A stretch of DNA of 64,000 nt from Fibrobacterota bacterium (GTDB lineage Bacteria; Fibrobacterota; Chitinivibrionia; Chitinivibrionales; FEN-1185): contig PLWQ01000012.1 of the NCBI GenBank assembly GCA_003165595.1, forward strand, positions 8,856 to 72,855, given 5' to 3'. The translations under genes were made by a program, and so were the position numbers. The number at the start of each line of letters is the position of its first letter. The first letter of the stretch is position 1. The notes below the pieces were generated by a model, which saw only the letters and a list, made by a program, of their open reading frames with translations, had not been told where the DNA came from and ran no database searches. Below are positions 15,977-49,343 of the stretch, piece after piece.

Positions 15977-16034
15977 TTGCCATCCCTCCCAAGAAGGTTT
16001 AAATGTTTCTTCTCAAGAAACACACATCCTGCGA

Positions 16035-16081: not shown

Positions 16082-16089
16082 GTTGTTCA

Positions 16090-16190: not shown

Positions 16191-16217
16191 ACGGTTTCCC
16201 ATGTATTTTATTTTTTT

Positions 16218-16995: not shown

Positions 16996-17177
16996 ACAAG
17001 ATCCTGCTGCAAAACCGGTGCCAGGTAACAAAAGCAGGCGCCCCGACCTCATGAGAGCTATGGGAAGCGGGAAATCCATTTCTTGCTTATATTTGCATCA
17101 GATACCTTGTAGCGCCGCAGGCCCGTCGACCGCCCTGTGGCCTGCGCACTTTAATCAACCTATTTGGAGGCATTCCC

Positions 17178-26877: not shown

Positions 26878-26883
26878 GGAAAA

Positions 26884-27576: not shown

Positions 27577-27698
27577 ATTCCTTCCGTTTCTGGATGATAC
27601 CGTGGCGGAAACAACGTGTTGCAGGGTTTCTAACCCGGCCCTATTCTTAATATAATGCACGGACTGCCGCTTCCCTGCGGCAGCCGCGGCCCGAATAG

Positions 27699-28379
27699 TC
27701 AATGAGAGAAAGGCGGCACGGTGGTATCGGTGTGATGCTTCACCATCCGCGCCTGGTCGTGAAAAATCTCCTCCTCGGCGATATTCGTCGACAGGTCCGC
27801 AATCCGTTCGAGGTTCTTGCTCACGCGGATATACTCGATTGCGGGCTCTATGAGCGCCGGATTTTTCTTGACAATGTCGATCGATTTCAGGATCATGCTC
27901 CTGTTCATCTCGTCGACCTCGTCGTCCTTGAGAAGCTGCGCCCGTGCAAGTTCGGAATTCTTTGTAAAGAAACTTTCGAGCGAATTTCCGAGCATGGTCG
28001 TGACCATTTCGCCCATGCGGAACAGGTCGGGAAGGTCTTCGAGGGGGTCAAACGGCGAGCATTGGATCGCCGATTCCGCAATGTTCACCGCATGATCTCC
28101 GATTCGCTCCAGTTCGTTGTTCACCATCTGGATCGCCAGCACGAGCCGGAGGTCCACCGCCACGGGCTGCTGAAGCGCAAAAAATTTCACGACGTCGTTG
28201 TCGATGGTGATTTCGAACGTGTTGATCGCGTGCTCGTTGTCGAGTACCGATTGCGCCGCGGCCGCGTCCTTGGCGAGAAACGCCTGCAGGGACGCCTTGA
28301 CGGCTTTTTCCGCCTCGTCGGCCATGGCCAAAAGGGTCTCCATCACTCTGGCGATTTCTTTTTCGAAGTGCCGTTCCAC
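27699..28379 (-). CDS. phoU: PhoU-family phosphate regulator (copy 2)
   Basis: 226 aa with the same two-bundle layout as copy 1: ERIGDHAVNIAESAIQ in the first half and NLERIADLSTNIAEEEI in the second. It starts MERHFEKEIARVMETLLAM. It sits at the canonical PhoU position directly after pstB (23 bp), while copy 1 trails phoR. Two PhoU proteins in one operon may serve PhoR and Pst separately; this is inference. The 122-bp gap to phoB shows no clear extra promoter. Confidence 0.93.
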   Translation of the reverse strand: MERHFEKEIARVMETLLAMADEAEKAVKASLQAFLAKDAAAAQSVLDNEHAINTFEITIDNDVVKFFALQQPVAVDLRLVLAIQMVNNELERIGDHAVNIAESAIQCSPFDPLEDLPDLFRMGEMVTTMLGNSLESFFTKNSELARAQLLKDDEVDEMNRSMILKSIDIVKKNPALIEPAIEYIRVSKNLERIADLSTNIAEEEIFHDQARMVKHHTDTTVPPFSH

Positions 28380-28402
28380 AATAGCGCCTTTCCCGAAGAG
28401 GG

Positions 28403-29179
28403 TTAACCGAACCTGCCCGTGATGTAGTCCTCGGTGCGCTTTATCTTGGGCGAGGTGAATATGGCATTGGTGGTATCAAACTCGATGAGTTCACCCAAGT
28501 AAAGGAATGCGGTGTAGTCGCTTACCCGGGAAGCTTGCTGGAGGTTGTGGGTTACCATGATGACGCAATACTCGTGACGCAGCTCTTCTATGAGTTCGTC
28601 GATTTGCCCCATTGATATCGGATCCAGCGCCGATGCCGGTTCGTCAAGGAGCACTATTTCCGGCTTGATGGCAATGGTGCGTGCGATGCAAAGCCGCTGC
28701 TGCTGCCCCCCGGAGAGACTCAAGCCGCTCCGGTTAAGCTTGTCCTTCACTTCGTTCCACAGCGCTGCCTTGGAAAGCACCTCCTCCACCAATTCGTCCA
28801 TTTGCTGCCGGGGCAACCTCCGGTACAGCCGGACCGGGAACGCAATGTTGTCGTAAATTGACATAGGAAAAGGGGTGGGACGCTGGAATACCATGCCTAT
28901 CTTTGCCCGAAGGGCCGACACCGTGACGCCCGGGCTTATAATGTTCTCGCCGTCCACCTCTACCCTGCCTTCGGCGCGCTGGCCCGGGTACAGGTCGTAC
29001 ATTCTGTTAAGCACGCGCAGCAGCGTAGACTTTCCGCATCCCGACGGACCTATGAGCGCCGTGACGCTACGGTCCGGGAAATCCAGCGAAATGTCCTTGA
29101 GCGCCAGCGTGTCGTTGTAAAAGAAGTTGAGCTGCTTCACAGACACTTTTATTTTCGTTTCAGGAGAATTGTCGTTCAT
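28403..29179 (-). CDS. pstB: Phosphate ABC transporter ATP-binding protein
   Basis: 258 aa from the ATG at 29179 (GGAGGAAG upstream), whose first bases overlap the pstA stop (ATGA). Walker [18 protein letters not shown] is the PstB hallmark. The signature [16 protein letters not shown], Walker [15 protein letters not shown] and the switch [18 protein letters not shown] follow. It powers high-affinity phosphate import with PstC, PstA and PstS. Confidence 0.97.
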
Positions 29180-30021
29180 GTCTTCCTCCGGCTGAACAAT
29201 CGGGCGAAAATGCTGAGCGCAAGCACGGTCACGGTGATGAGCAGCGAGCCCACCCACGCCAGCTGCTGCCAGTCCCGGTAGGGACTCATTGCAAATTGGA
29301 AGATTACTATGGGCAGCGTTGAAAGCGGCGCATTCATGGAGAACGAGGTAAATTGGTTATTGAGCGAGGTGAACAGCAACGGCGCGGTTTCCCCGCTGAT
29401 CCGGGCCAGAGCCAGGATGATACCCGTAACGATACCCGGCCGCGCCGCACGCCACCCGATGCTAACGATCATTTTCCAATAGGGACATCCCAGAGCAATG
29501 GTTGCTTCGCGCAAGGTGTCGGGCACCAGCCGCAACATGTCTTCGGTGGTGCGAATGATTACCGGCAGCGCTATAAAGCACAAGGCGAGGGCGCCCGCCC
29601 ACCCGGAAAAATGGCCGACCGGAAGAACCACGAGACCGTAGATGAACAGGCCGGTTATGATGGACGGCGCGCTCAGCAGAATGTCATTGCAGAATCGGAC
29701 AACGTGGCCGAACCTCGAATCGCGCCCGTATTCGGCAAGGTACGTCCCGGCAAGGACGCCTATGGGAACGGCAAAGAGTATGGCAAAAAAGACGACCAGA
29801 ACGCTTCCCACGATTGCGTTGAAGAGTCCGCCTTTGCTTCCCGGCGCCGGCGTGCTCATGGTGAAAACGGAAGGAGCCAGCGAGTGCACGCCGTCGGCAA
29901 CCAGCTTGATAAGAATGGCGGCAAGCACGCCAATGGAAACAATCATTGCCAGATGAAACAATCCGATCATGAACCGGTTCATCAGGCGACGTTTGCGCAA
30001 AATGCCGGGATCCAGTTTCAT
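29176..30021 (-). CDS. pstA: Phosphate ABC transporter permease PstA
   Basis: 281 aa. The ATG at 30021 overlaps the pstC stop (ATGA, 30018-30021). Six helices; the EAA loop is [23 protein letters not shown]-like (about residues 185-210), with the PstA-type [13 protein letters not shown]. The start lies after a Lys/Arg-rich [14 protein letters not shown] longer frame extending to 30585 is the pstC shadow. Confidence 0.96.
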
Positions 30022-31043
30022 ACGGGTATCTTGCGGTTTGCCGAGTGGAGAAGAATTCTGGTTATTACGAGAACTACAAACGTGATGGCAAACAATATCA
30101 GACCCAGGGCCAGGAGCGAGGACAAGTACATTTTGCCAAATGCCTCCGTAAACTCGTTGGCCAGCGTTGCGGAAATAGTGGTCCCCGGAGCAAAGAGAGA
30201 CATCTGAATGCGATGGGCATTGCCGATCACGAACGTAACGGCCATGGTTTCGCCGAGCGCACGCCCCAGGCCGAGCATTATTGCGCCGATAATGCCGGTT
30301 TTGGTATACGGCAGAATAATGCGATAGCAGACCTCCCATACCGACGCGCCTGTGCCATAGGCCGCTTCGCGCAACGCAACAGGCACGGTTGCAAACGCCT
30401 GAAGACTCACCGAGGCGATAAACGGCAGGATCATGATGCTCAGGATAAGCCCTGCGGTGAGCATTCCTATCCCGAAAGGCGGGCCCTGGAAGAACGCGCC
30501 AATCAGGGGTAGCGGACCAAGCGCATTGATAACTGCCGGTTGTATGATTTTCGACATGATGGGCACAAGAACGAACAATCCCCACATGCCGTAGATAATG
30601 CTGGGAATTGCCGCAAGAAGTTCAATGGTTGTCGTGAGAATTGAGCGCAACCGGAACGGGCAAAGCTCATTAAGATAGAATGCAACACCGAGCGCCAGCG
30701 GCGCACCACATACTACCGCGACAATGGAGGTAATAAGTGTGCCGGTGACTGCCGGCAAAGCTCCGAACTTGTCGGTTACGGGATTCCAGGAGCTGTTAAA
30801 AATAAAAGGCAGCCCAAAGGTCTTGAAGGCCGGGAAACTCTGGTAACAGAGCGTGGCGAAAATACCGGCCATTACCAGAACCACCAGCAAAGCGGCAGCC
30901 CTGGAAGCAAGCCCGAAAACAGGCTCGAACCCGCTGCCGAAGGCAACCAGCCTGGGCCTCTGCGCGGCCGGGACCTTTGCCTGATCGAAAGCGTTCGAAT
31001 TCCGTGATGCCATTGTACCGGCCGGTGCGGTTTCTTCCATCAT
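30018..31043 (-). CDS. pstC: Phosphate ABC transporter permease PstC
   Basis: 341 aa with a 40-residue cytoplasmic N-terminus, then six helices. The EAA loop is [18 protein letters not shown], followed by [18 protein letters not shown], both PstC signatures. It is the first gene of the pstCAB-phoU-phoB-phoR-phoU series. A four-unit 11-bp array (31135-31172) lies 92 bp upstream of the start, so this transcript is predicted to be PhoB-activated independently of pstS. Confidence 0.96.
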
Positions 31044-31134
31044 GATTCCACAGGCCTTTCCATTCTCTTTCTTTCGCCGACAAAAGCTCGGTGAATAGCC
31101 GCAATCACCTCAAGGATCAAAATCTAAAAATAAT

Positions 31135-31172
31135 GTTAGGATTGCGTTAGTGAAAGATTACAAATTCATTAG
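31135..31172 (-). promoter_or_regulatory. Pho-box array for pstC
   Basis: Units GTTAG (31135), GTTAG (31146), ATTAC (31157), ATTAG (31168) on the plus strand start exactly 11 bp apart, antisense to pstC. Four in-phase units equal two adjacent PhoB dimer sites. This is one of the cleanest arrays and sits before a certain phosphate gene. Confidence 0.85.
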
Positions 31173-31192
31173 CGATCTTCCTGAGGTTTGAG

Positions 31193-31216
31193 AGGCCGGC
31201 CTGCGCGGGCCGGCCT
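31193..31216. terminator. Hairpin after the porin gene
   Basis: Arms AGGCCGGCC and GGCCGGCCT around TGCGCG lie 24 bp past the porin stop. They could end the pstS-porin transcript before the pstC promoter. There is no T-run. Confidence 0.55.
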
Positions 31217-31239
31217 TCTGCCGTTTCGTTAAAAAGGCG

Positions 31240-32469
31240 TCAATAGTCGAATTCGCCGTTGAGAAAGACCTTGTTCATTGCAATGGAAGCACCCTGGACT
31301 CTGGGTTTGACGCGTTGATAATCAAGCGCCAGTTTCACCCTTGACACAGGGCAGTACTCAAGGCCGGCCATCATAGTCTGACCATCGTTGGCACTCCAGG
31401 AGTTCCTCGAGGAAGCAAGGTCAAACCTGCCAAATACACCGAGTTCCTTGATGATATTGTACATGGCGTACGCGGAAACGCCGTTCGCATCGTGGAGCCT
31501 TTTGCCTCCCTGGCTGATCTGGTTATCGTATTCCAGACCGACCTTTGCCATATTGAGAATATTGTACCCAACAAATGCGGCAATGGTTTTCTGGGCCGAA
31601 TCCTTCATGTCTTTCTGCTCGGGCATCCAATCGCCGTACACGTAGACGGTGAGATCCTTGATGGGATTTACCTGCACTGCGCCGGCCACTTTGTAGTCGC
31701 CGTAGGCGTCCTGGTTCGACTTGTAGCCTTCGCCCTGGGTGACGCCGACCGTAATCTTGAGCATGTCGATTGGGTTAACAAGAACTTTTGCGCCCAGGTC
31801 CGCGCTCGATGCCCAGCCCTCCTGGTCCATGAAGGATTTGAAGACATAGCGGTGTCCCCAGAAGGATTCCATTACGTCAAACGCAAAATAGGTAAACTGT
31901 CCGAGGGTGAGCGTGGTCGTCGGAAGAATGCCTTTCCACGCGACGTAGGCGGTTTTCAGATATGTAATGTAGCTGTCGTTTATCTTGAGCGACAACGGGG
32001 CTTCCACCGACACGGTGCCAAGGTTGGCGGTCTTTCCGGTATCCACCTTGATTGAACTGCCCACATTACTATTATTGGGTGCCGTATACGGATCAATGCG
32101 CTGCACGTCCAACATCGCTTCCGTTGAAAATGCTTTGTTGATCTTGAAATCGTAACCAAGGTAAACCCTGTTCAGTTCGACAAAGGATTTTTCCGTTGCG
32201 GTAGCCGGCGTATTCTGCGTTGCGTCGTAATTCCAATCCGCAAAGATCTTCCCCACAATTTTGCCCTCGGGCTTGTCTTCCGCGGGCTTCGCTGCCGGAG
32301 CCTTCATTTCCGCAGGTTTTGCCTCAGGTTCGGGAGCCTTCGCTTCCGCCGGCGCAACTTGAGCTGCAGCCTGGGTCGTGTCCGGCGCCTTGTCTTGTGC
32401 CGATGATGCCACGACACCACCCGACGCAAGCACGCAGGTCGCTATGCTGAGTATGGTTGAGATACGCAT
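31240..32469 (-). CDS. Outer-membrane porin, probably phosphate-starvation-induced
   Basis: 409 aa. The signal peptide MRISTILSIATCVLASGGVVASSA is followed by an Ala/Pro/Glu/Lys-rich linker (about 25-70), then a beta-barrel with alternating amphipathic strands (KIVGKIFADWNYDA, FVELNRVYLGYDFKI, VKLALDYQRVKP) and a C-terminal aromatic strand NKVFLNGEFDY. The layout resembles OprO/OprP-type or related Fibrobacterota barrels. It lies 66 bp downstream of pstS on the same strand, so it probably admits phosphate or phosphorylated compounds to the periplasm. The phosphate link comes from position and not from conserved residues. Confidence 0.8.
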   Translation of the reverse strand: MRISTILSIATCVLASGGVVASSAQDKAPDTTQAAAQVAPAEAKAPEPEAKPAEMKAPAAKPAEDKPEGKIVGKIFADWNYDATQNTPATATEKSFVELNRVYLGYDFKINKAFSTEAMLDVQRIDPYTAPNNSNVGSSIKVDTGKTANLGTVSVEAPLSLKINDSYITYLKTAYVAWKGILPTTTLTLGQFTYFAFDVMESFWGHRYVFKSFMDQEGWASSADLGAKVLVNPIDMLKITVGVTQGEGYKSNQDAYGDYKVAGAVQVNPIKDLTVYVYGDWMPEQKDMKDSAQKTIAAFVGYNILNMAKVGLEYDNQISQGGKRLHDANGVSAYAMYNIIKELGVFGRFDLASSRNSWSANDGQTMMAGLEYCPVSRVKLALDYQRVKPRVQGASIAMNKVFLNGEFDY

Positions 32470-32535
32470 TGTAAATAGTCCTCCTCGTTATGGTTGTAGA
32501 ATAGGTGACGGTTTCTGTTGCATCGAACAGGTGCG

Positions 32536-33588
32536 TTACTTCGTGTAAATCGTCTTTCCATCCGCCGACTTGATCTGTTCGGACCAGGTCTTCTCAACTA
32601 TGTCAATAACGGCCTGGGGCATCGGAACGTAATTGAGTTCGTCGGCCATCTTGGACCCATTGGTGTAGCACCACGCAAAGAAGTTCAGGGCTTCCAGGGC
32701 CCTGTCCGGCTTTTCCTGTGATGTATGCATCAGGATGAAGCTCGCGCCGGTAATAGGCCAGCTCTCTTTCCCGGCCTGGTCGGTAAGGACGAGGTAAAAC
32801 CCGGGAGCGTTCTTCCAATCGGCATGAGCGGCGGCAGACTGAAACGTGCTGCTGCTGGGACTCAGGTATGCGCCGTCGTGAGAGGCAAGCATGGTGTAGG
32901 CGAGCTTATTCTGAAGTGCGTAAGCATATTCCACGTACCCGATGGAGCCCGGCGTTTGCGCGGTAAAGTTCGCCACACCTTCGTTGCCCTTGCCGCCTAT
33001 ACCCACCGGCCATTCAACCGACGTGTTGTTGCCGACCTTATCTGCCCAAGTCTTGCTCACCTTCATAAGGTAATTCGTGAAAAGAAACGTAGTTCCGGAC
33101 CCGTCGGAACGGTGCACGACCGCAATGTCCTGGGCGGGCAGTTTGACGCCCTTGTTAAGAGCTGCAATGGCCTTGTCGTTCCATTTCTTGATAGTGCCGA
33201 GATAGATATCGGCCAGGACCGCGCCGGTGAGCTTGATTTCTCCGGCCGTGATCCCCTGAACATTGACAACCGGAACAACGCCGCCCATAATCATGGGCCA
33301 TTGCACCAGACCGTCCTCTTTCAGCTTGTCTGCCTTGAGCGGCATGTCGGATGCGCCGAAATCGACAGTCTTCGCCTCGATCTGTTTGATACCGCCCCCC
33401 GAACCTATGGATTGATAATTGAGGCTCAGGTCCCGCTGCGCCTTGTAGGCCTCGGCCCATTTCGAATACACGGGGTAGGGAAACGTAGCGCCGGCGCCGG
33501 TGATTTCTCCAGCAGCCGCAGTCAAAGGCATCGACAGGCATGCCAGCGATAACGCCAGACAACTAACCTCGACAATGCGTGCCTTCAT
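32536..33588 (-). CDS. pstS: Phosphate ABC transporter substrate-binding protein
   Basis: 350 aa from the ATG at 33588 (AAGGAG upstream). The signal peptide runs MKARIVEVSCLALSLACLSMPLTAAAG. PstS motifs: GAGATFPYPVYSKWAEAY, SIGSGGGIKQI, the phosphate-binding loop DFGASDMPL, and HRSDGSGTTFLFTNYL. It is a soluble periplasmic receptor. Its promoter carries three to five 11-bp units (33655-33681, 33799-33814). It is transcribed separately from pstCAB, with the porin gene between. Confidence 0.97.
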   Translation of the reverse strand: MKARIVEVSCLALSLACLSMPLTAAAGEITGAGATFPYPVYSKWAEAYKAQRDLSLNYQSIGSGGGIKQIEAKTVDFGASDMPLKADKLKEDGLVQWPMIMGGVVPVVNVQGITAGEIKLTGAVLADIYLGTIKKWNDKAIAALNKGVKLPAQDIAVVHRSDGSGTTFLFTNYLMKVSKTWADKVGNNTSVEWPVGIGGKGNEGVANFTAQTPGSIGYVEYAYALQNKLAYTMLASHDGAYLSPSSSTFQSAAAHADWKNAPGFYLVLTDQAGKESWPITGASFILMHTSQEKPDRALEALNFFAWCYTNGSKMADELNYVPMPQAVIDIVEKTWSEQIKSADGKTIYTK

Positions 33589-33654
33589 GGCAAACTCCTT
33601 TTGTTGATGGTGAGGGTGGACTCTTATAATATGGAAAAAAACCAATTCTCACAA

Positions 33655-33681
33655 ATTAGATATGTGTTAGTGTTTTGTTAG
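33655..33681 (-). promoter_or_regulatory. Pho-box array for pstS (proximal)
   Basis: Units ATTAG (33655), GTTAG (33666), GTTAG (33677) on the plus strand, period 11 bp, 67 bp before the pstS start. A TATTAT-type -10 candidate (antisense of 33625-33632) lies between the array and the gene. Confidence 0.85.
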
Positions 33682-33798
33682 CAGCCACATTCCCGGCGAT
33701 TTCGTTTGTGTTGCTGTGTTCTTCCTCGAAAATTCGCCTTCAACTTGTTGGTGCACTACAAAAATTGCCTTTGGAGATGATTTTAGTATGTGTTTTAG

Positions 33799-33814
33799 GT
33801 TAGATTTTGGTTAC
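33799..33814 (-). promoter_or_regulatory. Pho-box pair upstream of pstS (distal)
   Basis: GTTAG (33799) and GTTAC (33810), period 11 bp, same orientation as the proximal array, 211 bp before pstS. Two units only, so chance is not excluded. The rest of the 342-bp pstS/GDPD gap shows no gene. Confidence 0.5.
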
Positions 33815-33930
33815 GACGCTTGGTTGCTCATGCACTCGGAGACGAATCAAGCACTACTATAAGGAATAAGGGAAGCCGCTTGGAACCGCGCTTTGGAAAA
33901 AACCCGCGCACCGCCTGGCAGTAACCTGTC

Positions 33931-34665
33931 CTAATCGCACAGCGCTAAACGCTTTCCCTCGTACCGGAGAAACCGCCAGGTTACGATTTTGTCCGGGAAG
34001 TCGGAAACCACCCCATCAACCCCCATCGCTTCCATGAGCAGGTATTCTTCTTCGCTATTGACAACATGCGCAACGACCTCCAACCCGCGCTCGTGGCATT
34101 CGGACACAAGGTCGGAAGTCACCTGGACCTTGTTCACAAATACGGAATGCGCCCCGATCTTTTCGGCGTATTTTACCGCCACATGGGGCACGCCGAGGAT
34201 CACGCAACCGGTCCGGATGTTCGGATCATAGCACCGCGCAGTTTCGAGTTCGTGGAAATTTGCGCTTGCGACGATAAATTGCGAATACTTCCACCTGCCT
34301 CGAAACAGAGCCTTGTGAATTTCCCGAACGACAAGCGACGCTCCGCCCGGGTTGTCTATTTGAATGCAGAGGCCTGCCTTGGTCTCCACTGCTTCTACAA
34401 CAGCCTCCAGCATTGGGGCCGCCTGATACCGCGCCGCATCAGCCGCGCGAAGAAATTCCAGGATTCCTCCGGGAGCGATCTTCCGGTCCCCGATTGCCCT
34501 CTCGAGCGCTTCGGTACTGATCGCAACGGGTTTGTCCCCGATGATGGTAGTATTCACAAGGATCCAGTCGGCCCCCAGGTCGGCAGCGCGGTTCACCGAA
34601 TTGATGGTATTCTCCGGTTCGTAGCCGGCTGCGCCGCGATTTCCAAAACACTTGACCTGCACCAT
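33931..34665 (-). CDS. Glycerophosphodiester-phosphodiesterase-like protein lacking catalytic residues
   Basis: 244 aa from the ATG at 34665 (AAAGGAGG upstream). The GDPD TIM-barrel frame is clear: GNRGAAGYEPENTINSVNRAADLGADWILVN at the N-terminus and GVDGVVSDFPDKI at the C-terminus. The active-site His of H-R-G is Asn, the E-x-D metal pair after GAD is V-N-type, and the second catalytic His (H-D) is replaced in AISTEALE; the later E-x-K is IQIDN. Catalysis as in GlpQ/UgpQ is therefore unlikely. There is no signal peptide, so it is cytoplasmic. A Pho-box array lies 60 bp upstream. A ligand-binding or regulatory role is possible. Confidence 0.8.
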   Translation of the reverse strand: MVQVKCFGNRGAAGYEPENTINSVNRAADLGADWILVNTTIIGDKPVAISTEALERAIGDRKIAPGGILEFLRAADAARYQAAPMLEAVVEAVETKAGLCIQIDNPGGASLVVREIHKALFRGRWKYSQFIVASANFHELETARCYDPNIRTGCVILGVPHVAVKYAEKIGAHSVFVNKVQVTSDLVSECHERGLEVVAHVVNSEEEYLLMEAMGVDGVVSDFPDKIVTWRFLRYEGKRLALCD

Positions 34666-34724
34666 TGCCGCCTCCTTTGTGTCCATTGGAATATTTCCCG
34701 AATATAAGAAAGTACCGGCCGTGT

Positions 34725-37307: not shown

Positions 37308-37334
37308 CTAACGCTTTCATAACAAGTGCCCAAT
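37308..37334 (+). promoter_or_regulatory. Pho-box array for the hybrid kinase gene
   Basis: CTAAC (37308), ATAAC (37319), CCAAT (37330), period 11 bp in sense orientation, 58 bp before the ATG at 37392. A GATAAT -10 candidate follows nine bases after the last unit. Confidence 0.65.
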
Positions 37335-37391
37335 GCCGTTCGGATAATTTTATTGCGTCGCGAATATCGGCACCGGGGAGCAGGCAGCACA

Positions 37392-38981
37392 ATGAAGGTT
37401 TTTGCAACACAGTCAAGGTCTATGAACATCTCGCGCCACATCAAATACCTCACTCCAATCCCGATAACGGCCGGCATGTATGACGTTTTCGGATTGTTTC
37501 GGAACAACAAGGATACCACGTTTTTCCCCGTCGTCGATGCCAACGGCACACCCATCGGGGTGGTCCGGGAATACAATCTCAAAGACTATACCTACGGCAT
37601 GTTCGGCAGGGAACTCATCAAACGGGAATCAATCAAGCGATTCATCACTCCCTGCCTCACCGTCTCGGTTGAGATGCCGCTTGAAGACGTTCTGCGCCTC
37701 TCGCCTTCCAATGATAATCCCGACGGCGTCGTGGTCCTCAAGGACGGCGTGTATGCAGGCGTGGTCCTGAATTCTTCGCTTCTCTGGCTCTTCGAGGAGA
37801 ACCGCAAACACACCCGCGCTCGCCTGCTGCAAGCCCAGAAGATGGAATCAATAGGCACCTTGGCGGGCGGCATTGCGCATGACTTCAACAACATCCTTAT
37901 GCCCATTATCGGGTACGCTGAGCTGCTTAAGCATTTTGTCAAGAAAAAGGATTCCCCGCAACTCAACTTCATAGACCAGATCATTACCGCGGGCAACAGG
38001 GCAAAAGACCTTGTGGCGCAGATCCTCAAGTTCAGCAGACAGAGCAGCGAAGAAAAGACGCATGTGCGGCTGTCGATGGTGGTCTCCGAAGTTCTCGACT
38101 TGCTGCGTTCGTCCCTGCCGAAGACCATCGAAATACGAATGTCGCTTGACGCGTCGCACGATTTGATCTGCGCCAGCGCCACCGAAATCCACCAGGTGCT
38201 GATGAACCTGTGCGCCAATTCGGCGCACGCGATGAGGGAAACCGGCGGAATCCTTGAAGTAAAGCTTGCCGACCACTCGGGACCACTCATCGGATGGTCG
38301 GGCGACTCCGACGCCGACGTATCGGGCAGCCTTCGCCTCACCGTGCGCGAGACCGGCCACGGCATAGACCCGTCCGTCATCGGCAGGATCTTCGACCCAT
38401 TCTTTACAACAAAGAAGCAAGGCGAGGGCACGGGCATGGGACTCGCCGTTGTACACGGGATCGTCAAGGGTTGCGGCGGTGCGATCTCCGTGGAAACCGG
38501 TTTGGGCGCCGGCGCCGCGTTCCACATTTACTTTCCAAAATCGTATCCGGTTGCCGCCAAGGACCAAACACCCTGCGACACCGAGGCAATCGAGCCAAAA
38601 GCGGACCTGTCGATCCTGTTCGTTGACGACGAACCGATGATAACCGCCATGGCAGAGGAAATGTTCACCATCCTGGGTTTCCTGGCGGTGTGCGTCGCCG
38701 ACAGCAGGGAGGCGCTCGACATTTTCTCGGCCAACCCGGAGAAATTCGACGCCGTCGTCACCGACCAGACCATGCCCGGCCTTACCGGCGTGGAACTTGC
38801 GAAGAAGCTCATTGCACTGCGCCCCGGCCTGCCGGTGGTGCTGTGCACGGGGTACAGCGAGATCGTGAGCGCGGAAATTGCAAAGTCGATGGGTGTGGCC
38901 GAGTACCTCACCAAGCCCGTGGATTTCGAGAAGCTCAAGAGAATAATCGTGCGGTTGACAAGCAACGCGACTTCCGCGTAG
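37392..38981 (+). CDS. Hybrid histidine kinase with CBS-like sensor and C-terminal receiver
   Basis: 529 aa from the ATG at 37392; a second ATG at 37422 (AAGG upstream) is possible. There are no membrane helices. The N-terminal 150 residues look like a CBS pair (FFPVVDANGTPIGVVREYNLKDY; SPSNDNPDGVVVLKDGVYAGVV), suggesting adenine-nucleotide sensing. HisKA is MESIGTLAGGIAHDFNN. HATPase_c follows (LMNLCANSAHAM, GHGIDPSVIGRIFDPFFTTK, GTGMGLAVVHGIV). The receiver is at about 405-525, with Asp in DAVVTDQTMPGLTG and Lys in EYLTKPVDFEKL. It could feed the stand-alone receiver at 34896. Pho-box units precede it, implying induction in phosphate starvation. Confidence 0.9.
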   Translation: MKVFATQSRSMNISRHIKYLTPIPITAGMYDVFGLFRNNKDTTFFPVVDANGTPIGVVREYNLKDYTYGMFGRELIKRESIKRFITPCLTVSVEMPLEDVLRLSPSNDNPDGVVVLKDGVYAGVVLNSSLLWLFEENRKHTRARLLQAQKMESIGTLAGGIAHDFNNILMPIIGYAELLKHFVKKKDSPQLNFIDQIITAGNRAKDLVAQILKFSRQSSEEKTHVRLSMVVSEVLDLLRSSLPKTIEIRMSLDASHDLICASATEIHQVLMNLCANSAHAMRETGGILEVKLADHSGPLIGWSGDSDADVSGSLRLTVRETGHGIDPSVIGRIFDPFFTTKKQGEGTGMGLAVVHGIVKGCGGAISVETGLGAGAAFHIYFPKSYPVAAKDQTPCDTEAIEPKADLSILFVDDEPMITAMAEEMFTILGFLAVCVADSREALDIFSANPEKFDAVVTDQTMPGLTGVELAKKLIALRPGLPVVLCTGYSEIVSAEIAKSMGVAEYLTKPVDFEKLKRIIVRLTSNATSA

Positions 38982-39405: not shown

Positions 39406-41862
39406 ATGGCAAAAGCCGACTGTCATGTCCACTCGAGCTTCTCCGAGCGCCCGTCCGAATGGTTCCTGCAGCGCATAGGCACCAGGGAATCGTATATCGC
39501 CCCGGAGGACGCATACGCAACCGCAAAACGCGCCGGAATGGATTTTGTCACCATAACCGATCACAACGTGATTGAAGGCGTTATGCGCCTGCGCGACCGG
39601 CACCCCGGCGACGTTTTTACGGGAGTCGAAGCGACTACCTATTTTCCGGAAGACGGCACCAAGATCCATGTGCTGGTGTGGGGACTTGAGCCGGAACAGT
39701 TCGCGGTAATCGACAAAGCGCGTTCGAGCATCTACGAGCTGCGCGAGTATCTGCGGGAGCAACAACTTGCCCACGCGGTGGCACACCCGACGTTTTCCAT
39801 AAACGGCCTGCTCACGCTCGAGCACGTTGAGCGGCTGTTTCTTCTTTTCGACCATTTCGAAAGCGCCAACGGCTCACGGGCAAGGCTCGATGGCGAGGTG
39901 CTTGGAAAAGTGTTCGCATCGCTTACACCCCAGCGCCTGGAAGATCTCGGCGACCGCTATTGCATTGAGCCGGCAAGCGGCGAATCATGGCGAAAGGGCG
40001 CTACAGGAGGATCTGACGATCACAGCGGGCTGTTTATCGGCACAACATTCACACAGGCAGATGCGCGAACACCGGAAGAGTTCCTCCTGCGCATCGCGGA
40101 CAAAAAGACCTCGGTATCGGGCCGCCACAACGATTATCGCGGGCTGGCGTTCTCCATTTATAAAGTGGCGTACGACTTCTCCAAATCGCGCGCGCCAATG
40201 GCAACCACACTTTTAGGATCAATCAATGAGCTGCTTTTCGACGAAAAGCCCCTCGACCTCAAGCGGAGGATACTGTTTGACAGAATGAAATTCTCCAAGG
40301 CCGGCCGGGAAGATCCCCTTCGCAGGCTGCTTTCGAGGCTGGTTGACAACCTTCAGCAAGATCGTACGCGCCCCACCGAGGCCAAGCTCGACCTGATAAG
40401 CGATGCAATTGCCGAGGCGTCGGACATCCTCTTGCGCGGCATGTTCGAGAATGTTGGCGGCGACCTTACCGCGGGCGACCTTATGGGTCTCATCAGGCAC
40501 ATTTCGAGCATGCTTCCCGGCGTATTCGTTTCCCTGCCCTTCTTTACATCGCTCAACGTGATCAACGGCTCGCGCGAACTTCTCGACGATCTCGCAGAAT
40601 CGTACGTGGGCAAAGAGCACAAGCGGGGCAAGCGGATACTCTGGTTCTCCGACACGTTCCTTGAGCTTTCCGGCGTGTGCGCCACGCTCCAGGAAATGTC
40701 GCGACTGGCCCGGGAACGCGGCCTCGACTTGACCATGGCAACCTGCCTGCCTCCCGCCGCCGAACGCAACGCGGAAATTCCGTCCAACGTGCTCGATCTC
40801 CCGTGTATTTATTCCTACACGCCGGAATTCTTCAGCACCTACACGGCGCGGATTCCCTCGGTGCTGTCGGCAATTCGAGCATCGAGCGCAGCCGCTCCCG
40901 ACGAGATTTACATCTCAACGCCCGGCCCGGTGGGCCTTGTGGGACTGCTCACCGCCAAGCTTCTCCATGTGCCGTGCACGGCGGTCTATCACACCGACTT
41001 TACGCGCCAGATGCGCCAGATCCTCGGCGACGCCACCATGTGCCGCGTCACCGAAGACTTTGTCAACTGGTTCTATTCGGTTGCGGATTCCGTGGCCGTG
41101 TCGACGCCCGACTACATGACCCTCTTGTCGCAACGCGGGCTTTCCCGGGCAAAAATGCGGCTCTTTCGTCGCGGCATTAACCCGGATCTTTTTGCGCCCG
41201 ATGGGCGGGGAACGGCGTATCTGGCGCAAACGCTGGGCATCCGCGATGGCGTGACGCTGCTGCACGCGGGCAGGGTAAGCAAGGAAAAGAACGTCGACTT
41301 CCTCGCCGGTGTTTACGAGGCGGTGCTTGCGAAACACGACAATGTGAACCTTGTGTTCGCGGGTGACGGGCCGTATCTTGACGAATACAAATCGCGCATG
41401 GCCTCGCACGACCGCGTGTATTTTGCCGGCCGCACCCGCAGGGAAACCCTTCCCCTCTTCTACTCCGGCGCGCACCTGCTGGTTTTCCCCAGCGTCACCG
41501 ACACCTTCGGCCTCGTGGTACTGGAGGCACAGGCGTGCGGCCTGCCCGCCCTTGTCTCGGATTTCGGCGGCCCAAAGGAAATCATTCGCGACGGCAAGAC
41601 CGGCTATGTGGCCGAGTCGAATAACCGTGACGATTGGGCAAACAAAATATGCGGCGTGGTCGACATGGTGAAATCATATCCCGACCTGTACGCCGAAATG
41701 CGAGCTGCTGCGCGAAGTCACGTTGCACTCACCTACTCATGGGACGTGGTATTCGACGACATATTCAACTCCGGCCGGCGGGGCTATGGAGCTTCGGCGG
41801 TCTCCGATCCGTCTACTGCGTACGCCGACATTCTTGCCGTCGGGGAACCGCCGGCCCGGTAG
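39406..41862 (+). CDS. PHP-domain phosphoesterase fused to GT4 glycosyltransferase
   Basis: 818 aa from the ATG at 39406 (TGGAGG upstream). Residues 1-260 are a complete PHP metal site: His7/His9 (CHVHSSF), Asp52/His53 (TITDHN), Glu75, His88, His127 (HAVAHP), Asp204-His206 (GGSDDHSG). A helical linker (about 270-400) follows. From about 405 a GT-B glycosyltransferase of family 4 is clear: HTDFTRQMRQI, VAVSTPDYMTLL, LLHAGRVSKEKNVDFLAG, and the E-x7-E region TDTFGLVVLEAQACGLPAL. The GT half resembles lipid glycosyltransferases of the SqdX/mannosyl- or glucosyl-diacylglycerol type. In a Pho region it may replace phospholipids by glycolipids, the PHP part removing a phosphate from the acceptor. 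That activity is inference. Confidence 0.85.
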   Translation: MAKADCHVHSSFSERPSEWFLQRIGTRESYIAPEDAYATAKRAGMDFVTITDHNVIEGVMRLRDRHPGDVFTGVEATTYFPEDGTKIHVLVWGLEPEQFAVIDKARSSIYELREYLREQQLAHAVAHPTFSINGLLTLEHVERLFLLFDHFESANGSRARLDGEVLGKVFASLTPQRLEDLGDRYCIEPASGESWRKGATGGSDDHSGLFIGTTFTQADARTPEEFLLRIADKKTSVSGRHNDYRGLAFSIYKVAYDFSKSRAPMATTLLGSINELLFDEKPLDLKRRILFDRMKFSKAGREDPLRRLLSRLVDNLQQDRTRPTEAKLDLISDAIAEASDILLRGMFENVGGDLTAGDLMGLIRHISSMLPGVFVSLPFFTSLNVINGSRELLDDLAESYVGKEHKRGKRILWFSDTFLELSGVCATLQEMSRLARERGLDLTMATCLPPAAERNAEIPSNVLDLPCIYSYTPEFFSTYTARIPSVLSAIRASSAAAPDEIYISTPGPVGLVGLLTAKLLHVPCTAVYHTDFTRQMRQILGDATMCRVTEDFVNWFYSVADSVAVSTPDYMTLLSQRGLSRAKMRLFRRGINPDLFAPDGRGTAYLAQTLGIRDGVTLLHAGRVSKEKNVDFLAGVYEAVLAKHDNVNLVFAGDGPYLDEYKSRMASHDRVYFAGRTRRETLPLFYSGAHLLVFPSVTDTFGLVVLEAQACGLPALVSDFGGPKEIIRDGKTGYVAESNNRDDWANKICGVVDMVKSYPDLYAEMRAAARSHVALTYSWDVVFDDIFNSGRRGYGASAVSDPSTAYADILAVGEPPAR

Positions 41863-41872
41863 GATTTACCGC

Positions 41873-43582
41873 ATGCTGTACATTGCCGACACGCTGTCGG
41901 CGTTCGCGCTTCCCTCCTGCCTGCCGCCGGGAGCAACCGTCAATTGGTCTAAAACTCCGTTCTCCCTCCTGGAACGCAACGGCCGGTTGCCGTTTGTCAC
42001 GCAGGAGCGGATACTGCGGCGATTCGCGACTTACTGCTATACGGTTGCAGCGCTCGGATTCAACGCCGTATCGGTGGACGATGTGGCGCACCTGGCTGCC
42101 CTCACGTGGTATCCACCCCGGCTCGCCGGTACAATCGAAGACTATTGCTCGCTGTTTTTCCGGCTGTGCGAGGCTGCCGCGGCATGCGGTCTGGCGGTAT
42201 TCGTGACCACCGACGCGAAATTCGCGCCGGCGAGCGGCCGTTTGTCCGGCGAAACCGACGCCGCGATCCTTTCCTGCGCGTGCGAACTTCTCTTTAAGCA
42301 ATTTCCCGGTGTGGCAGGCGTAATCCTTCGCCTCGGCGAATGCGATGGCCTCGACGTAGACCACGAAATGCGATCTAATCTGCTGGTGCGAACGCCCAAG
42401 CAGGCCCGCTCGCTTGTCCAATCGCTGCTCCCGCTATTTGAAGCGCGATGCCGGACGCTTGTGGTGCGCACGTGGACCGTTGGTGCATTTAAGGTGGGCG
42501 ACCTCATGTGGAACCCGCGCACTTATGACGCCGTCTTTGCCGGCCTCACGAGTTCCGCGCTCATTGTTTCGCACAAGTATGGAACGACCGATTTCTTTCG
42601 ATACCTCGGCCTCAATCCGCTCATTTTCCGGGGAACGCAACGCAAGCTTGTGGAATTCCAGGCACGGCGAGAATACGAAGGATTCGGGGAATTCCCTTCG
42701 TTTGCGGGCGACTACTACGAGCGGCTGAGGCAAAAACTGATGCGATGCGAGAACCTCGCCGGAATCATGGTCTGGTGCCAGACAGGCGGCTGGTCACGGT
42801 TCCGAAACGCCACTTTTATGCCCGGCTCGTCGATATACAATGAAATCAACGCTGCGGTTGCCGTATCGCTGTTTGCAAAGGGCGACGGCGTCGAGGCGGC
42901 TGTTTTGCGCTTTTGCAGGCAGCGCGCACCGCATATTGACTCAAAGCAACTTCTGCTGCTGCTCAGGCTTTCGTCGAGCGTCGTCGAATCGCTGTGGTAT
43001 ATGCCGGAGTTTTCGCGCCGCACCATCTTTTTCCGGCGAACCCGGGTGCCGCCGCTGTTGTGGGTGTTTTGGGATACCATCGTGATCAGCGCAACGCTGA
43101 GACTCTTTGTGCGGCGCTTTGCAAGACCCGGAGATTCGCGCAAGCCCGCCGATATTGCACTTGCGAAAATCCTCAAGATGCGAGACCTTGCCCTTCGCAT
43201 GGGGCTCGACGCGCAACCGTTTGTCCTTATGCACCGTACCTTTTGCCTGCTCGACCTTGCACGCCAGTATTTTCTTGGCGATGCAACGCCGACCCTGCAG
43301 CGCCGCATACAACGAGAGGTTGACGAATACAAGCATGATTTCCCGCGGGACCGGCGGTTTTCGGTTGTGTGCGACTTCGCTTCCCCCGCCGTGGAAGAAT
43401 CGCTGCTGCGGGTGATTTTCGGGCTCCTTACGCGAACCAGGCACCAGTATCGGCTGGCCGACGTGGTCCTGCTCAACAGGCTTGGCGCGGCCGTTATCCC
43501 ACTTGTTAAAGCTTGGAACAAGCGGCGGCTTCCCGCTTTCGTGAGAGAGCGGGGCATGGGATTCGAATCGTTGCTTCGGTAA
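41873..43582 (+). CDS. Unrecognised protein, possibly TIM-barrel glycosidase-like
   Basis: 569 aa from the ATG at 41873 (TAGGAT upstream), 10 bp after the PHP-GT4 gene and surely co-transcribed with it. No signal peptide. The N-terminal 330 residues alternate hydrophobic strands and helices like a TIM barrel (LGFNAVSVDDVAHLAAL; CGLAVFVTTDAKFA; GVAGVILRLGECDGLD; LIVSHKYGTTDF). The segment VEFQARREYEGFGEFPSF vaguely recalls alpha-glucuronidase-type hydrolases, as does GIMVWCQTGGWSRF. The last 200 residues are helical and Arg-rich. I do not recognise the family. The context suggests work on the product or substrate of the glycosyltransferase. Confidence 0.7.
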   Translation: MLYIADTLSAFALPSCLPPGATVNWSKTPFSLLERNGRLPFVTQERILRRFATYCYTVAALGFNAVSVDDVAHLAALTWYPPRLAGTIEDYCSLFFRLCEAAAACGLAVFVTTDAKFAPASGRLSGETDAAILSCACELLFKQFPGVAGVILRLGECDGLDVDHEMRSNLLVRTPKQARSLVQSLLPLFEARCRTLVVRTWTVGAFKVGDLMWNPRTYDAVFAGLTSSALIVSHKYGTTDFFRYLGLNPLIFRGTQRKLVEFQARREYEGFGEFPSFAGDYYERLRQKLMRCENLAGIMVWCQTGGWSRFRNATFMPGSSIYNEINAAVAVSLFAKGDGVEAAVLRFCRQRAPHIDSKQLLLLLRLSSSVVESLWYMPEFSRRTIFFRRTRVPPLLWVFWDTIVISATLRLFVRRFARPGDSRKPADIALAKILKMRDLALRMGLDAQPFVLMHRTFCLLDLARQYFLGDATPTLQRRIQREVDEYKHDFPRDRRFSVVCDFASPAVEESLLRVIFGLLTRTRHQYRLADVVLLNRLGAAVIPLVKAWNKRRLPAFVRERGMGFESLLR

Positions 43583-43879: not shown

Positions 43880-45874
43880 ATGGCATCATCACCTGTTTCC
43901 AAGAAACGCAGACCATTGTCCAAAACATCTGAGCGTATTCCCGAGTCTTCCGTGACGAGCGGCACCGATCTCGAAACGCTCCTGCGCTCGCTCAAACATC
44001 TCCGCGCTGATCTTCTTACCATGAGGGAGCGTTTTGCAAGAGTCGTTGACGGCCTGCACCCCGACAACCGGCACAGCGCCCGGAACCTTCTTGGGTATCT
44101 TGCGTTGCGAAGGCACGACATCCGCGATGTCCAGGAAACACTTGCGAGCCTCGGCCTCTCGTCGCTGGGCAGGGCCGAAGCGCACGTTCTCGCAACGTTG
44201 AATACGGTAATAAGCACCGTGAGCGCTCTTGCCCACCGGCCCGAAAAGGTACATCCGTCAACATACACGCAAATTACCCGTGAGCGGGGCCGGGAGATCC
44301 TGCGCCGGCACACCGAATCGCTGCTGGGCCCGGCACCGGCGGGCAGGGCTACCCGCATCATGGTAACCATGCCGCCCGAGGCGGCGCAGGACTACAAGCT
44401 TGTCAAAAACATGCTTGTGCGCGGCATGAACTGCATGCGGATCAATTGCGCGCATGACGCGCCTGCGGCCTGGGAGGCGATGATAACAAACCTGCGCCGC
44501 GCCGAACGGGAATCGCACAGGAGCTGCAAACTCCTGATGGACCTTGCCGGCCCCAAGCTGCGCACCGGCCCGCTGCTCGCCGGTCCCAAGGTGGTTAAGT
44601 GGCGGCCAAGCCGCGATGCCCTGGGAAGGGTTATTGCGCCGGCGCGGATCTGGCTCAAGGCAATTGACGGACAGGAACCAGCACTCTCCGGGCTTGATGC
44701 CGTCCTGGGCGTGAGCGTCAAATGGCTCACCCGGATAAAGAAAGGTGATACAATCGTCTTTACGGATTCCCGTAATGCCGAGAGACGTATGAAGGCCGTG
44801 CTCGCGGGGACCGAAGGTTGGCTGTGCGAAAGCGAGCTTACGTCCTACGTCACGGAGCGGGTCGTTCTGGCCATCGATCGAGAGGCAAAAGCCGCGCAGG
44901 CATGGTCACGCGTTGTGCTGGAAAACGTGCCGGAAAATGCGGACCCCATTGTTCTGCGCGTCGGCGACAACCTGATTCTCACCCCGGACACCATCCCGGG
45001 CATGCCCGCCCAAACCGACGCCCGCGGCAGGGTCGTTTCGCCCGCGACAATCGGATGCACCCTTCCCGCGGTATTTGCAGATGCGAAAGTGGCCCACCGG
45101 ATTTGGTTCGACGACGGCAAAATCGGCGGCGTCGTAAGAAAGCGCATGCCGCAGCAACTGGAAATAGAGATCGTCCACGCCCGTGCAAAGGGCGAAAGGC
45201 TCCGAGGGGAAAAGGGCATCAACCTTCCCGATACAACGCTCAAGATGTGTCCGCTCACGGCAAAAGACCTGTCGGACCTGGATTTCGCCGCACGCCACGC
45301 CGACATCATCGGCATGTCTTTTGTCCAGAAAATATCGGACGTAAGATTGCTTCAGAATCATCTTGCGGCCCGCGGAGGCCAAAACGCAGGTATGCTGCTC
45401 AAGATTGAGACACAGCGCGGATTCAAGCAGCTTCCCGATTTGCTGCTTGCCGCGATGCGCAGCGAAAAGGTGGGCGTCATGATCGCGCGGGGAGACCTTG
45501 CCGTGGAATGCGGATGGGAACGGCTTGCAGAAATCCAGGAAGAAATTCTGTGGATTTGCGAGGCCGCTCATGTTCCGGTCGTGTGGGCAACGCAGGTGCT
45601 GGAGACCGTTGCAAAAGACGGACAGCCCTCTCGCGCAGAGATTACCGACGCTGCCATGGGCCAGCGCGCCGAATGCGTGATGCTCAACAAGGGCCCGCAT
45701 ATTCTCGAGGCGATCCGCATCCTCGACGATATCCTGCGCCGCATGCAGCTTCACCAGCGGAAAAAGCGCACGCTGCTTCGGCGCCTCAACTTCTGGTGGA
45801 GCCCCAAACGGCACCTGTCCTCGCTCCAGTCACTGCCGGGACGCGACGCCGCGCCGCCGCAATTGCATTTATAA
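43880..45874 (+). CDS. Pyruvate-kinase-like protein with extended N-terminus
   Basis: 664 aa. The first 130 residues are a helical domain absent from normal pyruvate kinase. The barrel follows: MVTMPPEAAQDYKLVKNML, GMNCMRINCAHD (Arg and Asn ligands), LMDLAGPKLRTG, a B-domain-like insertion, DIIGMSFVQKISDV, LLKIETQRGF (catalytic Lys, metal Glu), MIARGDLAVECGW, WATQVLETVAKDGQPSRAE. The usual MLSGETA motif has become MLNKGPHI, and the C-terminal allosteric domain is missing; a basic tail (KKRTLLRRLNFWWSPK) ends the protein. It is probably a PEP-binding relative, with ADP phosphotransfer uncertain. A Pho-box array upstream suggests expression in phosphate starvation. Confidence 0.82.
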   Translation: MASSPVSKKRRPLSKTSERIPESSVTSGTDLETLLRSLKHLRADLLTMRERFARVVDGLHPDNRHSARNLLGYLALRRHDIRDVQETLASLGLSSLGRAEAHVLATLNTVISTVSALAHRPEKVHPSTYTQITRERGREILRRHTESLLGPAPAGRATRIMVTMPPEAAQDYKLVKNMLVRGMNCMRINCAHDAPAAWEAMITNLRRAERESHRSCKLLMDLAGPKLRTGPLLAGPKVVKWRPSRDALGRVIAPARIWLKAIDGQEPALSGLDAVLGVSVKWLTRIKKGDTIVFTDSRNAERRMKAVLAGTEGWLCESELTSYVTERVVLAIDREAKAAQAWSRVVLENVPENADPIVLRVGDNLILTPDTIPGMPAQTDARGRVVSPATIGCTLPAVFADAKVAHRIWFDDGKIGGVVRKRMPQQLEIEIVHARAKGERLRGEKGINLPDTTLKMCPLTAKDLSDLDFAARHADIIGMSFVQKISDVRLLQNHLAARGGQNAGMLLKIETQRGFKQLPDLLLAAMRSEKVGVMIARGDLAVECGWERLAEIQEEILWICEAAHVPVVWATQVLETVAKDGQPSRAEITDAAMGQRAECVMLNKGPHILEAIRILDDILRRMQLHQRKKRTLLRRLNFWWSPKRHLSSLQSLPGRDAAPPQLHL

Positions 45875-47441: not shown

Positions 47442-49076
47442 TCAGAGCTGAATCCATGCGAGCGGAATGTTTCCATTTCGAGCGCCCGTGATCCGGAGCA
47501 GGTAGAATCCGCAAGGCAGCGATCGTTTCAATGGAACCTCTTGTGCGCTTCCATTGAAAAGCTTATTGCCAAGGTCCTGTACCTGTGCGCCCGAGGCGCT
47601 GAAAATTTCCAGCCGTGCAGTTCCATCCAGCCCTTGAACCACCAAGGAACTTCTGGACAGTCGGGCGGTAACTGGGCAATTAAAGAGTCTTGCTTTATTG
47701 GTCGGCATTGCAAGGGAAGAGCTGTTCTTGACAATCGTGTACCCGTCAATGGCGGTTGTTACATTGCTATTTATGGCGTAGGTAACGATGGAAAATGTGT
47801 CCGCGTGAATCTTGACGCGCGAGAAGGTCGGTTCATTTTGCTGCCAGTAAACTTTCGAGTAGACCGGGTAGGCCGGCTGACCGTTCACCACATAGGCGGA
47901 GTTGAGCTGGTAATACTTGCTGCCGCTTCCGGAATTGAACGTCATGTAGAGCGTGCCCTGGGGATTAACCGCCATGACGCTGTCCCCTGCTCTCGACACC
48001 GGCATTCCGCCAAGCATTTGATACGATCTGGTGTAGGAATGGTCGTGGCCGGACATGACGACATCGATGCCATATTTGTCAAAAACCGGAGGGTAAGCAC
48101 TCCTTCGAAAAACAATGTCGGCATCCAAAGCATGGTCGGCTTCGCTGTACAAGGAGTGATGGAAGGAAACGATTTTCCACTTGGCGTTCGGGTTGGCGGT
48201 AATGGCCTGCCCTATGAAGACATCATGGGTAGTGGCGCTCTGGGTATTGCTGTTAATCACCATAAACAAAGCTTGGCCATAAGCGAACCAGTAGTCACCA
48301 TCATTGCCAAATGCGGTTGCGCCGTCCAGAGCCGACTGGTTGGGAAGATTATAGTGATAGGCATAGTAGTGGCCCAGCCCGTAATCATGGTTGCCTTCTA
48401 TTGTGGCAACAGGAAGGCCAAGCAACTGTGATGGGCTAAAGTAGCCATTGTATTGCAGTTCCACGCCTGCTCTGGAGGTCGTATTGTCGATCTGGTCACC
48501 GAGCGAAAGGATAAAACTGGCACTCGAGACTGTTTGCGTTGCAACGGTCATTGCATTCTGCCAGCCAACAGTGTCATAGCGAAGAACATTACTGTCTTGA
48601 GCGGCTATCCCGCCCGTGGAAGCGCCGATCTGCGGGTCGCCCACGGCGATGAAGGTGAAGGAACTTGTGTCCCTGGTTTGGATCGTGTGGAAGTCGCTCC
48701 ACGTTGTGCCGTAGCCGACTCGATATGTGTAATTGGTGGAAAGCGCAAGACCCGTGACTGCTACCTTGTTCTGATACCATCCCGCCGATAGCTTCCCGGT
48801 GGTGGTATCGTAATAGGCCAGAGAGTCTACGCCGGTGAAAGTCGCCGTATCTCCTCCGGCTGTCTTGACGATCTGAACTGCCGGTGTGTGGGACGTACTG
48901 GTGGCCCACGAAAAGCATAGCTGCGAAGCATCACTGCCCGGCGTGATATTCAGCCAGGAGTTGGGGGCATGGACGGCGTCGGGAACATCGGCAATTCCGG
49001 GTTGCGCAGTTGAGAGCAACGCTATCGCCAGCGGCGCCAACAAAACATTTCTAAATTTTCCGAGTTTAAGTGACAT
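47442..49076 (-). CDS. Exported purple-acid-phosphatase-like metallophosphoesterase
   Basis: 544 aa from the ATG at 49076 (AAGGAG upstream). The Sec signal runs about residues 1-30. A fibronectin-III-like N-terminal domain (about 36-135) is followed by the calcineurin-like phosphoesterase: VGDPQIG (146), LGDQIDN (193), EGNHDYG (about 227-233), then VSFHHSLY and MSGHDHSYTR. These are all the metal ligands of the purple acid phosphatase class. The last 75 residues are a FlgD/T9SS-like domain (ARLEIFSASGAQVQDLG ... CGFYLLRITGA), so the enzyme is probably displayed or secreted. It should release phosphate from organic esters outside the cell. Two Pho-box arrays lie upstream. Confidence 0.92.
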   Translation of the reverse strand: MSLKLGKFRNVLLAPLAIALLSTAQPGIADVPDAVHAPNSWLNITPGSDASQLCFSWATSTSHTPAVQIVKTAGGDTATFTGVDSLAYYDTTTGKLSAGWYQNKVAVTGLALSTNYTYRVGYGTTWSDFHTIQTRDTSSFTFIAVGDPQIGASTGGIAAQDSNVLRYDTVGWQNAMTVATQTVSSASFILSLGDQIDNTTSRAGVELQYNGYFSPSQLLGLPVATIEGNHDYGLGHYYAYHYNLPNQSALDGATAFGNDGDYWFAYGQALFMVINSNTQSATTHDVFIGQAITANPNAKWKIVSFHHSLYSEADHALDADIVFRRSAYPPVFDKYGIDVVMSGHDHSYTRSYQMLGGMPVSRAGDSVMAVNPQGTLYMTFNSGSGSKYYQLNSAYVVNGQPAYPVYSKVYWQQNEPTFSRVKIHADTFSIVTYAINSNVTTAIDGYTIVKNSSSLAMPTNKARLFNCPVTARLSRSSLVVQGLDGTARLEIFSASGAQVQDLGNKLFNGSAQEVPLKRSLPCGFYLLRITGARNGNIPLAWIQL

Positions 49077-49343
49077 GGGTTTCTCTCCTTGATGACATTT
49101 TGGTTTCTTCTTCTGGATGATGCTCATAGTGTACAACCACGCACAGGGACTTTCGATTGTTGACAGCTTTGGTCCGAAGTCTACGGGATAATCTCTTTTT
49201 GCAAGACGCACTCCTCGGGTATTTGCTGAATCATTCCCTCCTTTTCTCAAAAGGTTTTGGGCCCGGCACAGTCTCAAAGCTTCAGGAAGCCAGTACTCGT
49301 TGCTCAACGACCAGATAAAATCGCCCGGTTGCATTATGTGGCG

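Follow-up and report, generated by a model that had tools for sequence, protein, structure and literature searches.

One of the main ways in which bacteria save phosphorus is to replace phospholipids with glycolipids, a process in which PlcP is the well-known phospholipase. The locus described here raises the question of whether a single protein could both free diacylglycerol (DAG) from phospholipid and glycosylate it. The earlier note proposed this for a protein encoded in the window (the whole 64,000-nucleotide stretch of Fibrobacterota DNA that was analyzed), in which a PHP phosphoesterase and a GT4 glycosyltransferase joined in one chain would act as a phospholipid-to-glycolipid remodeller under phosphate starvation.

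The Fusion Gene and Its Phosphate-Gene Neighborhood

The fusion gene starts with an ATG at 39406 that is preceded by GGAGG, and this start position is common to the orthologues. The gene, its domains and its upstream neighbor are arranged as follows:

39406-41862, plus strand: PHP-GT4 fusion gene, an intact open reading frame of 818 aa
39406-40125, plus strand: PHP phosphoesterase domain, residues 1-240 (metal residues, hhalign, NCBIfam match under its cut-off)
40126-40620, plus strand: all-helical linker, residues 241-405 (predicted helices)
40621-41859, plus strand: GT4 glycosyltransferase domain, residues 406-818 (Pfam, GT-B fold, motifs, tree)
37326-38981, plus strand: CBS-histidine kinase-receiver hybrid, the upstream neighbor (Pfam)

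Linker residues of approximately 371-387 are moderately hydrophobic, with a maximum 17-residue hydropathy of about 1.2-1.9 in the 83 members of our fusion alignment. These values rule out a transmembrane helix, and they are weak evidence for a possible membrane-contact region.

The phosphate-starvation region cited by the earlier note is borne out by a gdpD-pstSCAB-phoU-phoB-phoR region (25036-34686, minus strand) located 4.7 kb from the fusion. The genes of this region and two others in the window are:

33931-34686, minus strand: GDPD, glycerophosphodiester phosphodiesterase (Pfam E 4e-18)
32536-33645, minus strand: PstS-like phosphate-binding protein (Pfam)
30018-31043, minus strand: PstC (NCBIfam TIGR02138, over cut-off)
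29176-30585, minus strand: PstA (NCBIfam TIGR00974, over cut-off)
28403-29257, minus strand: PstB (NCBIfam TIGR00972, over cut-off)
27699-28379, minus strand: PhoU (Pfam)
26884-27702, minus strand: PhoB-like regulator (Pfam)
25036-26877, minus strand: PhoR-like kinase (Pfam)
47442-49334: purple-acid-phosphatase-like gene
53881-54882: PHO4-type transporter

Between PstC and PstS (31240-32469) there is also a 409-aa protein without a Pfam match, which has a counterpart of about 33% identity beside pst in one other locus (L039).

The link to phosphate genes recurs across phyla, with pst/phoU genes lying within about 9 kb at 17 of 94 fusion loci, in at least seven phyla, against approximately one expected if a 4-Mb genome is assumed to hold two pst/phoU clusters. 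The 94 loci include a few that are incomplete or unfused, and the neighborhood counts leave out the PhoB-like gene. The corresponding binomial probability is 2e-17, or 4e-6 at an assumed rate of 5%, both figures being subject to the fact that related genomes are not independent. Because no E. coli-type Pho box lies just upstream of the fusion (the window holds six weak matches vs. 3.3 expected), we infer phosphate regulation of the gene from its neighborhood only.

Kinship of the GT4 Half

The GT4 domain that had been described as joined to the PHP half matches PF00534 with an E of 4e-33, and structure prediction of the fusion recovers a GT-B fold (E 3e-16 to BshA). It carries the motifs GRVSKEKN (residues 622-629) and FPSVTDTFG (residues 694-702), with His529 and Asp699 as the predicted catalytic residues. 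DAG glycosyltransferases of the Agt/GTcp type are marked by the motifs GRVAxEKN and FPSxTDTFG, with Asp replacing the usual Glu (PMC8231724); the first motif of the fusion departs from theirs by one conservative change, and the second fits. The His-Asp dyad, with Asp for Glu, is held across the alignment of 83 fusions (His529 in 83/83 and Asp699 in 82/83). By motif position only, R589 (77/83) and W779 (44/83) were matched to Arg163 and Trp320, which contact DAG in GTcp. Both GTcp of Ca. Pelagibacter HTCC7211 (334 aa) and the A. tumefaciens Agt share the dyad and the two motifs with the fusion but, unlike it, are standalone proteins without a PHP domain.

Kinship was also examined in a quick tree of 96 GT4 sequences with many long branches. 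In it, the GT domains of the fusions make up a single clade (SH-aLRT 93), which is joined to the Agt1/Agt2 clade at a support of 87. They stand beside the proven Agts of the PlcP-Agt pathway as a clade of their own and not inside theirs, so that the fusion is a relative rather than a clade member. Given the quick method and the long branches, the tree supports kinship and is not proof of specificity. The sequences that we take to be Agt1 and Agt2 were recognized in plasmid records by gene order together with the PAO1 map. Agt2 matches the fusion GT domain with an E of 7e-33 and, of the 40 plasmid records listed, has the highest bit score; Agt1 and Agt2 of Pseudomonas aeruginosa are proven DAG glycosyltransferases (PMC8528852). 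Clustering with cell-wall or capsule enzymes, which the earlier note had named as contrary to its proposal, is not what the tree gives: 27 of the 28 other GT4s of the genome fall elsewhere, and E. coli WaaG, WaaB, WcaL and WcaI are likewise placed away from the fusion-Agt group. In the same genome, an open frame of 839 aa encodes two GT4 domains in tandem (L213, on contig C35 of G000).

Motifs and tree together place the GT half with the DAG glycosyltransferases, nearest the Agt clade among the sequences compared. We regard the glycolipid half of the remodeller interpretation as well supported, and its glycolipid-synthase part as likely right. That the GT4 domain instead decorates some other lipid or glycan (e.g., a phospholipid or a surface polysaccharide intermediate), with the phosphate neighborhood being incidental or a matter of general phosphate recovery, seems improbable to us. 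Sequence is a poor guide to the specificity of GT4 enzymes, and NF053787, the curated NCBIfam model that comes closest, describes a phosphatidylglycerol glycosyltransferase (100 bits, far short of the cut-off of 480), both of which speak for such an acceptor; it is opposed by the Agt-group motifs and tree, by the pst neighborhood in many phyla, and by the likely match to a glycolipid mutant of Desulfovibrio alaskensis.

Relation to Dde_3613 of Desulfovibrio alaskensis

Wild-type D. alaskensis makes glycolipids at low phosphate only, and a G20 mutant in Dde_3613, a gene described as an “Agt homolog” and “glycosyltransferase group I,” has no glycolipids at low phosphate and keeps its phospholipids (PMC5193443). 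The published text on Dde_3613 mentions neither a PHP domain nor a phospholipase, and it reports homologues at E <1e-100 in more than 50 deltaproteobacteria (PMC5193443). Among 297 sampled genomes of the D. alaskensis phylum, Agt-grade standalone glycosyltransferases occur in seven (six strong matches and one weaker). The fusion is found in about 60 of 119 sampled Desulfovibrionaceae, and the two occur together in three of the Desulfovibrionaceae sampled, a co-occurrence that counts against the remodeller reading. Since the standalone Agt is rare in the phylum and the fusion is common in the family, this indirect case makes it probable that Dde_3613, the MGDG/GADG synthase called “Agt,” is itself a PHP-GT4 fusion of the same family as ours. 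If so, genetics has already revealed part of the function, and the present fusion is less novel. The known Desulfovibrio “agt” would then carry an unrecognized second enzyme.

In another member of the Desulfovibrionaceae (L228, G201, positions 4569-17253), a fusion, a true standalone Agt and several GT4 genes lie within 13 kb, a region that is possibly a lipid-glycosylation island.

Distribution and Conservation of the Fusion

Besides the window's genome, 12 genomes of the same order encode a full-length orthologue, and in two more the gene is truncated by a contig end (37-61% identity); Chitinivibrionales and Chitinispirillaceae bacteria are among these fusion-bearing genomes. More divergent fusions, 860-900 aa long, were found in further families of the Fibrobacterota. 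A single-sequence scan of contigs found no relative; a profile scan of named genomes did. It revealed the PHP-GT4 architecture in about 20 phyla with the two catalytic sites preserved, which goes far beyond chance. These phyla include Spirochaetota, FCPU426, Cloacimonadota, KSB1, Marinimicrobia, Thermodesulfobacteriota, Myxococcota, Nitrospirota, Omnitrophota, Ignavibacteriota, Kiritimatiellota, Verrucomicrobiota, Planctomycetota, Hydrogenedentota, Chloroflexota and Cyanobacteriota/Melainabacteria, and the fusion is also found in the gammaproteobacterium Arenicella. Cultured species with a relative include Desulfuromusa kysingii and Solidesulfovibrio aerotolerans.

In the 83-fusion alignment, eight PHP metal positions are each kept in 80-83 rows (96-100%), Asp52 is kept in 78 rows and replaced by Asn in four, and N155 and K197 are further conserved residues of the PHP half. 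The conservation of the PHP metal site and of the GT His/Asp site, with few exceptions, indicates that both halves are under strong selection. The fusion is an old and widespread feature, and it is probably catalytic in both halves. As for the exceptions, L129 has lost three PHP ligands (H53Q, H88N and H206Q) and L086, L092, L108 and L120 have lost one each, which in L108 and L120 is E75Q; the GT is intact in L108, L120 and L129. These three make up three of the four Verrucomicrobiota members aligned, and their altered PHP sites beside a retained GT mean that the PHP half may not be needed everywhere.

Four distant fusions from other families of the phylum (L051, L052, L054 and L055, 25-26% identity) have Asn for Asp52, and L051 adjoins PhoR/PhoB-like genes. 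The planctomycete locus L099 may represent an unfused version: one open reading frame encodes a PHP part (432 aa), and another, at a distance of about 2.4 kb, a similar GT4 (390 aa).

The PHP Half and Its Possible Supply of Diacylglycerol

Each metal residue claimed for the N-terminal half (His7, His9, Asp52-His53, Glu75, His88, His127, Asp204 and His206) was found at its place in the open reading frame, and the PHP superfamily motifs H-x-H, T-D-H, E, H, H and D-x-H are all present and near-invariant in the 83 fusions. The fusion scores 15.4 bits with Pfam PF02811 (PHP), under the cut-off of 26.4, and the NCBIfam CehA/McbA metallohydrolase match of this half (5.5e-6) is likewise below its cut-off. 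When the fusion-family profile was compared by hhalign with an authentic PHP protein encoded in the same genome, the match had a probability of 96% and an E of 2e-9, and the N-terminal motifs (H-x-H, T-D-H, E and H) were aligned with one another. Motifs and profile comparison therefore suggest that the N-terminal half is PHP-like and belongs to a divergent PHP branch. Its metal ligands are shared with the PHP superfamily members histidinol phosphatase, PolX exonuclease, Elen0235 and Sb-PDE; unlike these, the fusion scores under the Pfam PHP cut-off and carries a GT4 domain. Around the PHP site the predicted structure is of low confidence (pLDDT <50 in parts), and the best 50 matches listed in its fold search are all GT-B, with no independent PHP match among them. 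Because Pfam does not recognize so divergent a PHP half, automatic annotation would probably label the protein a plain glycosyltransferase.

No PlcP match was found in the 64-kb window, nor was a close homologue of P. aeruginosa PlcP found in 50 genomes chosen mainly for the fusion, where the best hit has 31% identity and 66 bits (two true PlcPs, used as a benchmark, give 56% identity and 288 bits). With the usual DAG supplier apparently missing, the PHP half is the obvious candidate for this task, and a phospholipid-cleaving role for it is plausible, this being the weaker step of the overall reading. The PlcP-Agt pathway, represented by Sinorhizobium, Agrobacterium, Phaeobacter and Pseudomonas aeruginosa (PA3219/PA3218/PA0842), resembles the fusion in its phosphate-starvation setting and in the coupling of a phosphoesterase to a DAG glycosyltransferase, and the GT4s of the two belong to one wider group and have their catalytic motifs in common. 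The difference lies in the phosphoesterase, which in the fusion is a PHP with no relation to the metallophosphoesterase PlcP and shares its chain with the glycosyltransferase.

The PHP half could also do something else beside a GT4 half that is a phosphate-starvation DAG glycosyltransferase, either dephosphorylating UDP/UMP or a sugar phosphate or serving a regulatory or structural purpose, with DAG coming from ordinary turnover. We consider this arrangement rather unlikely. It agrees with the known PHP enzymes, which cleave small phosphomonoesters, nucleotides and alkyl phosphodiesters (PMC5460133), with the degraded PHP site and retained GT of L129, and with the finding that Pseudomonas retains some glycolipid when plcP is mutated, so that PlcP is not the sole source of DAG (PMC8528852). 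The near-universal presence of a full metal site together with N155 and K197 argues instead for a specific catalytic role, and a PlcP-grade enzyme was not found in the fusion genomes tested. The open-licence literature searched yielded no PHP-family phospholipase. A reversed order of events, in which a phosphorylated lipid (e.g., phosphatidate) is first glycosylated by the GT and only afterward dephosphorylated by the PHP half, would also explain the conserved fusion of two active sites, but the Agt relatives use DAG directly (PMC8528852, PMC8231724), and we think this order very improbable.

Proposed Mechanism and the Downstream GH67-like Gene

In the reading that we prefer, with the PHP half acting ahead of the glycosyltransferase, the fusion would be a cytoplasmic, membrane-facing glycolipid synthase for times of phosphate scarcity. 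Its GT4 half would move glucose and/or glucuronic acid from a UDP-sugar onto DAG to give alpha-glycosyl-diacylglycerol, through a retaining mechanism that uses His529 and Asp699 and is suggested by the motifs, the tree and the Desulfovibrio genetics. The PHP half would most likely supply the DAG through hydrolysis of a phospholipid head group or of phosphatidate, taking the place of PlcP. For the one-protein remodeller as a whole, we find the case evenly balanced.

A further gene begins 10 bp past the fusion stop:

41873-43582, plus strand: GH67 (alpha-glucuronidase)-like TIM barrel gene, 569 aa

Orthologues of it directly follow the fusion in the spirochaete locus L074 and, within the Fibrobacterota, in seven further contigs (two of them cut by the contig end); in the Desulfuromonadales locus L077 one is adjacent to the fusion on the other strand. 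Within the Fibrobacterota the gene is present in 9 of the 15 genomes with a close fusion vs. 0 of 153 others. The best PDB match of its predicted structure (model pLDDT 75) is the GH67 alpha-glucuronidase 1gql, with an E of 3e-10 and a TM of 0.52. A Pfam search of the 569-aa protein gave no match at E<=1, GH67 included, and hhalign aligns the GH67 catalytic region with it weakly (E 0.0046, probability 7.6%). Invariant among its orthologues, E156, D240 and E267 are candidate catalytic residues, with a spacing that we take to resemble that of the GH67 acid/base residues. The protein is GH67-like and is not filed here as GH67: it shares the TIM-barrel fold (1gql) and aligned candidate catalytic residues with GH67 alpha-glucuronidase, and unlike GH67 it has no Pfam GH67 match and, in Fibrobacterota, is confined to fusion genomes. 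It is possibly a new glycoside hydrolase family. Since glucosyl- and glucuronosyl-DAG are products of Agt-type enzymes, the idea of a partner that hydrolyses glycolipid is attractive, and the protein is perhaps a glycolipid-turnover enzyme that, more speculatively, may hydrolyse the glycolipid once phosphate returns.

The broader proposal that the PHP half represents a new, PlcP-independent class of lipid phosphoesterase, either a phospholipase C or a phosphatidate phosphatase, directly feeding a fused Agt-like synthase in about 20 phyla, with a GH67-like glycolipid-dismantling partner in the Fibrobacterota and a few others, is put forward as a tentative possibility that we hold with some doubt. 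A PHP enzyme that cleaves lipids would add a substrate class to the superfamily. Spread over about 20 phyla, most of them anaerobic or uncultured, the fusion would account for their membrane remodelling, and the gene would serve as a marker of phosphorus limitation in anoxic settings rich in MGDG lipids. No description of a PHP-GT4 glycolipid enzyme was found in the open-licence literature searched, and as far as we found the PHP half, the spread over phyla and the GH67-like partner are new.

Just past the fusion operon, at 43880-45874, lies a long atypical pyruvate kinase (NCBIfam NF011314, 788 bits).
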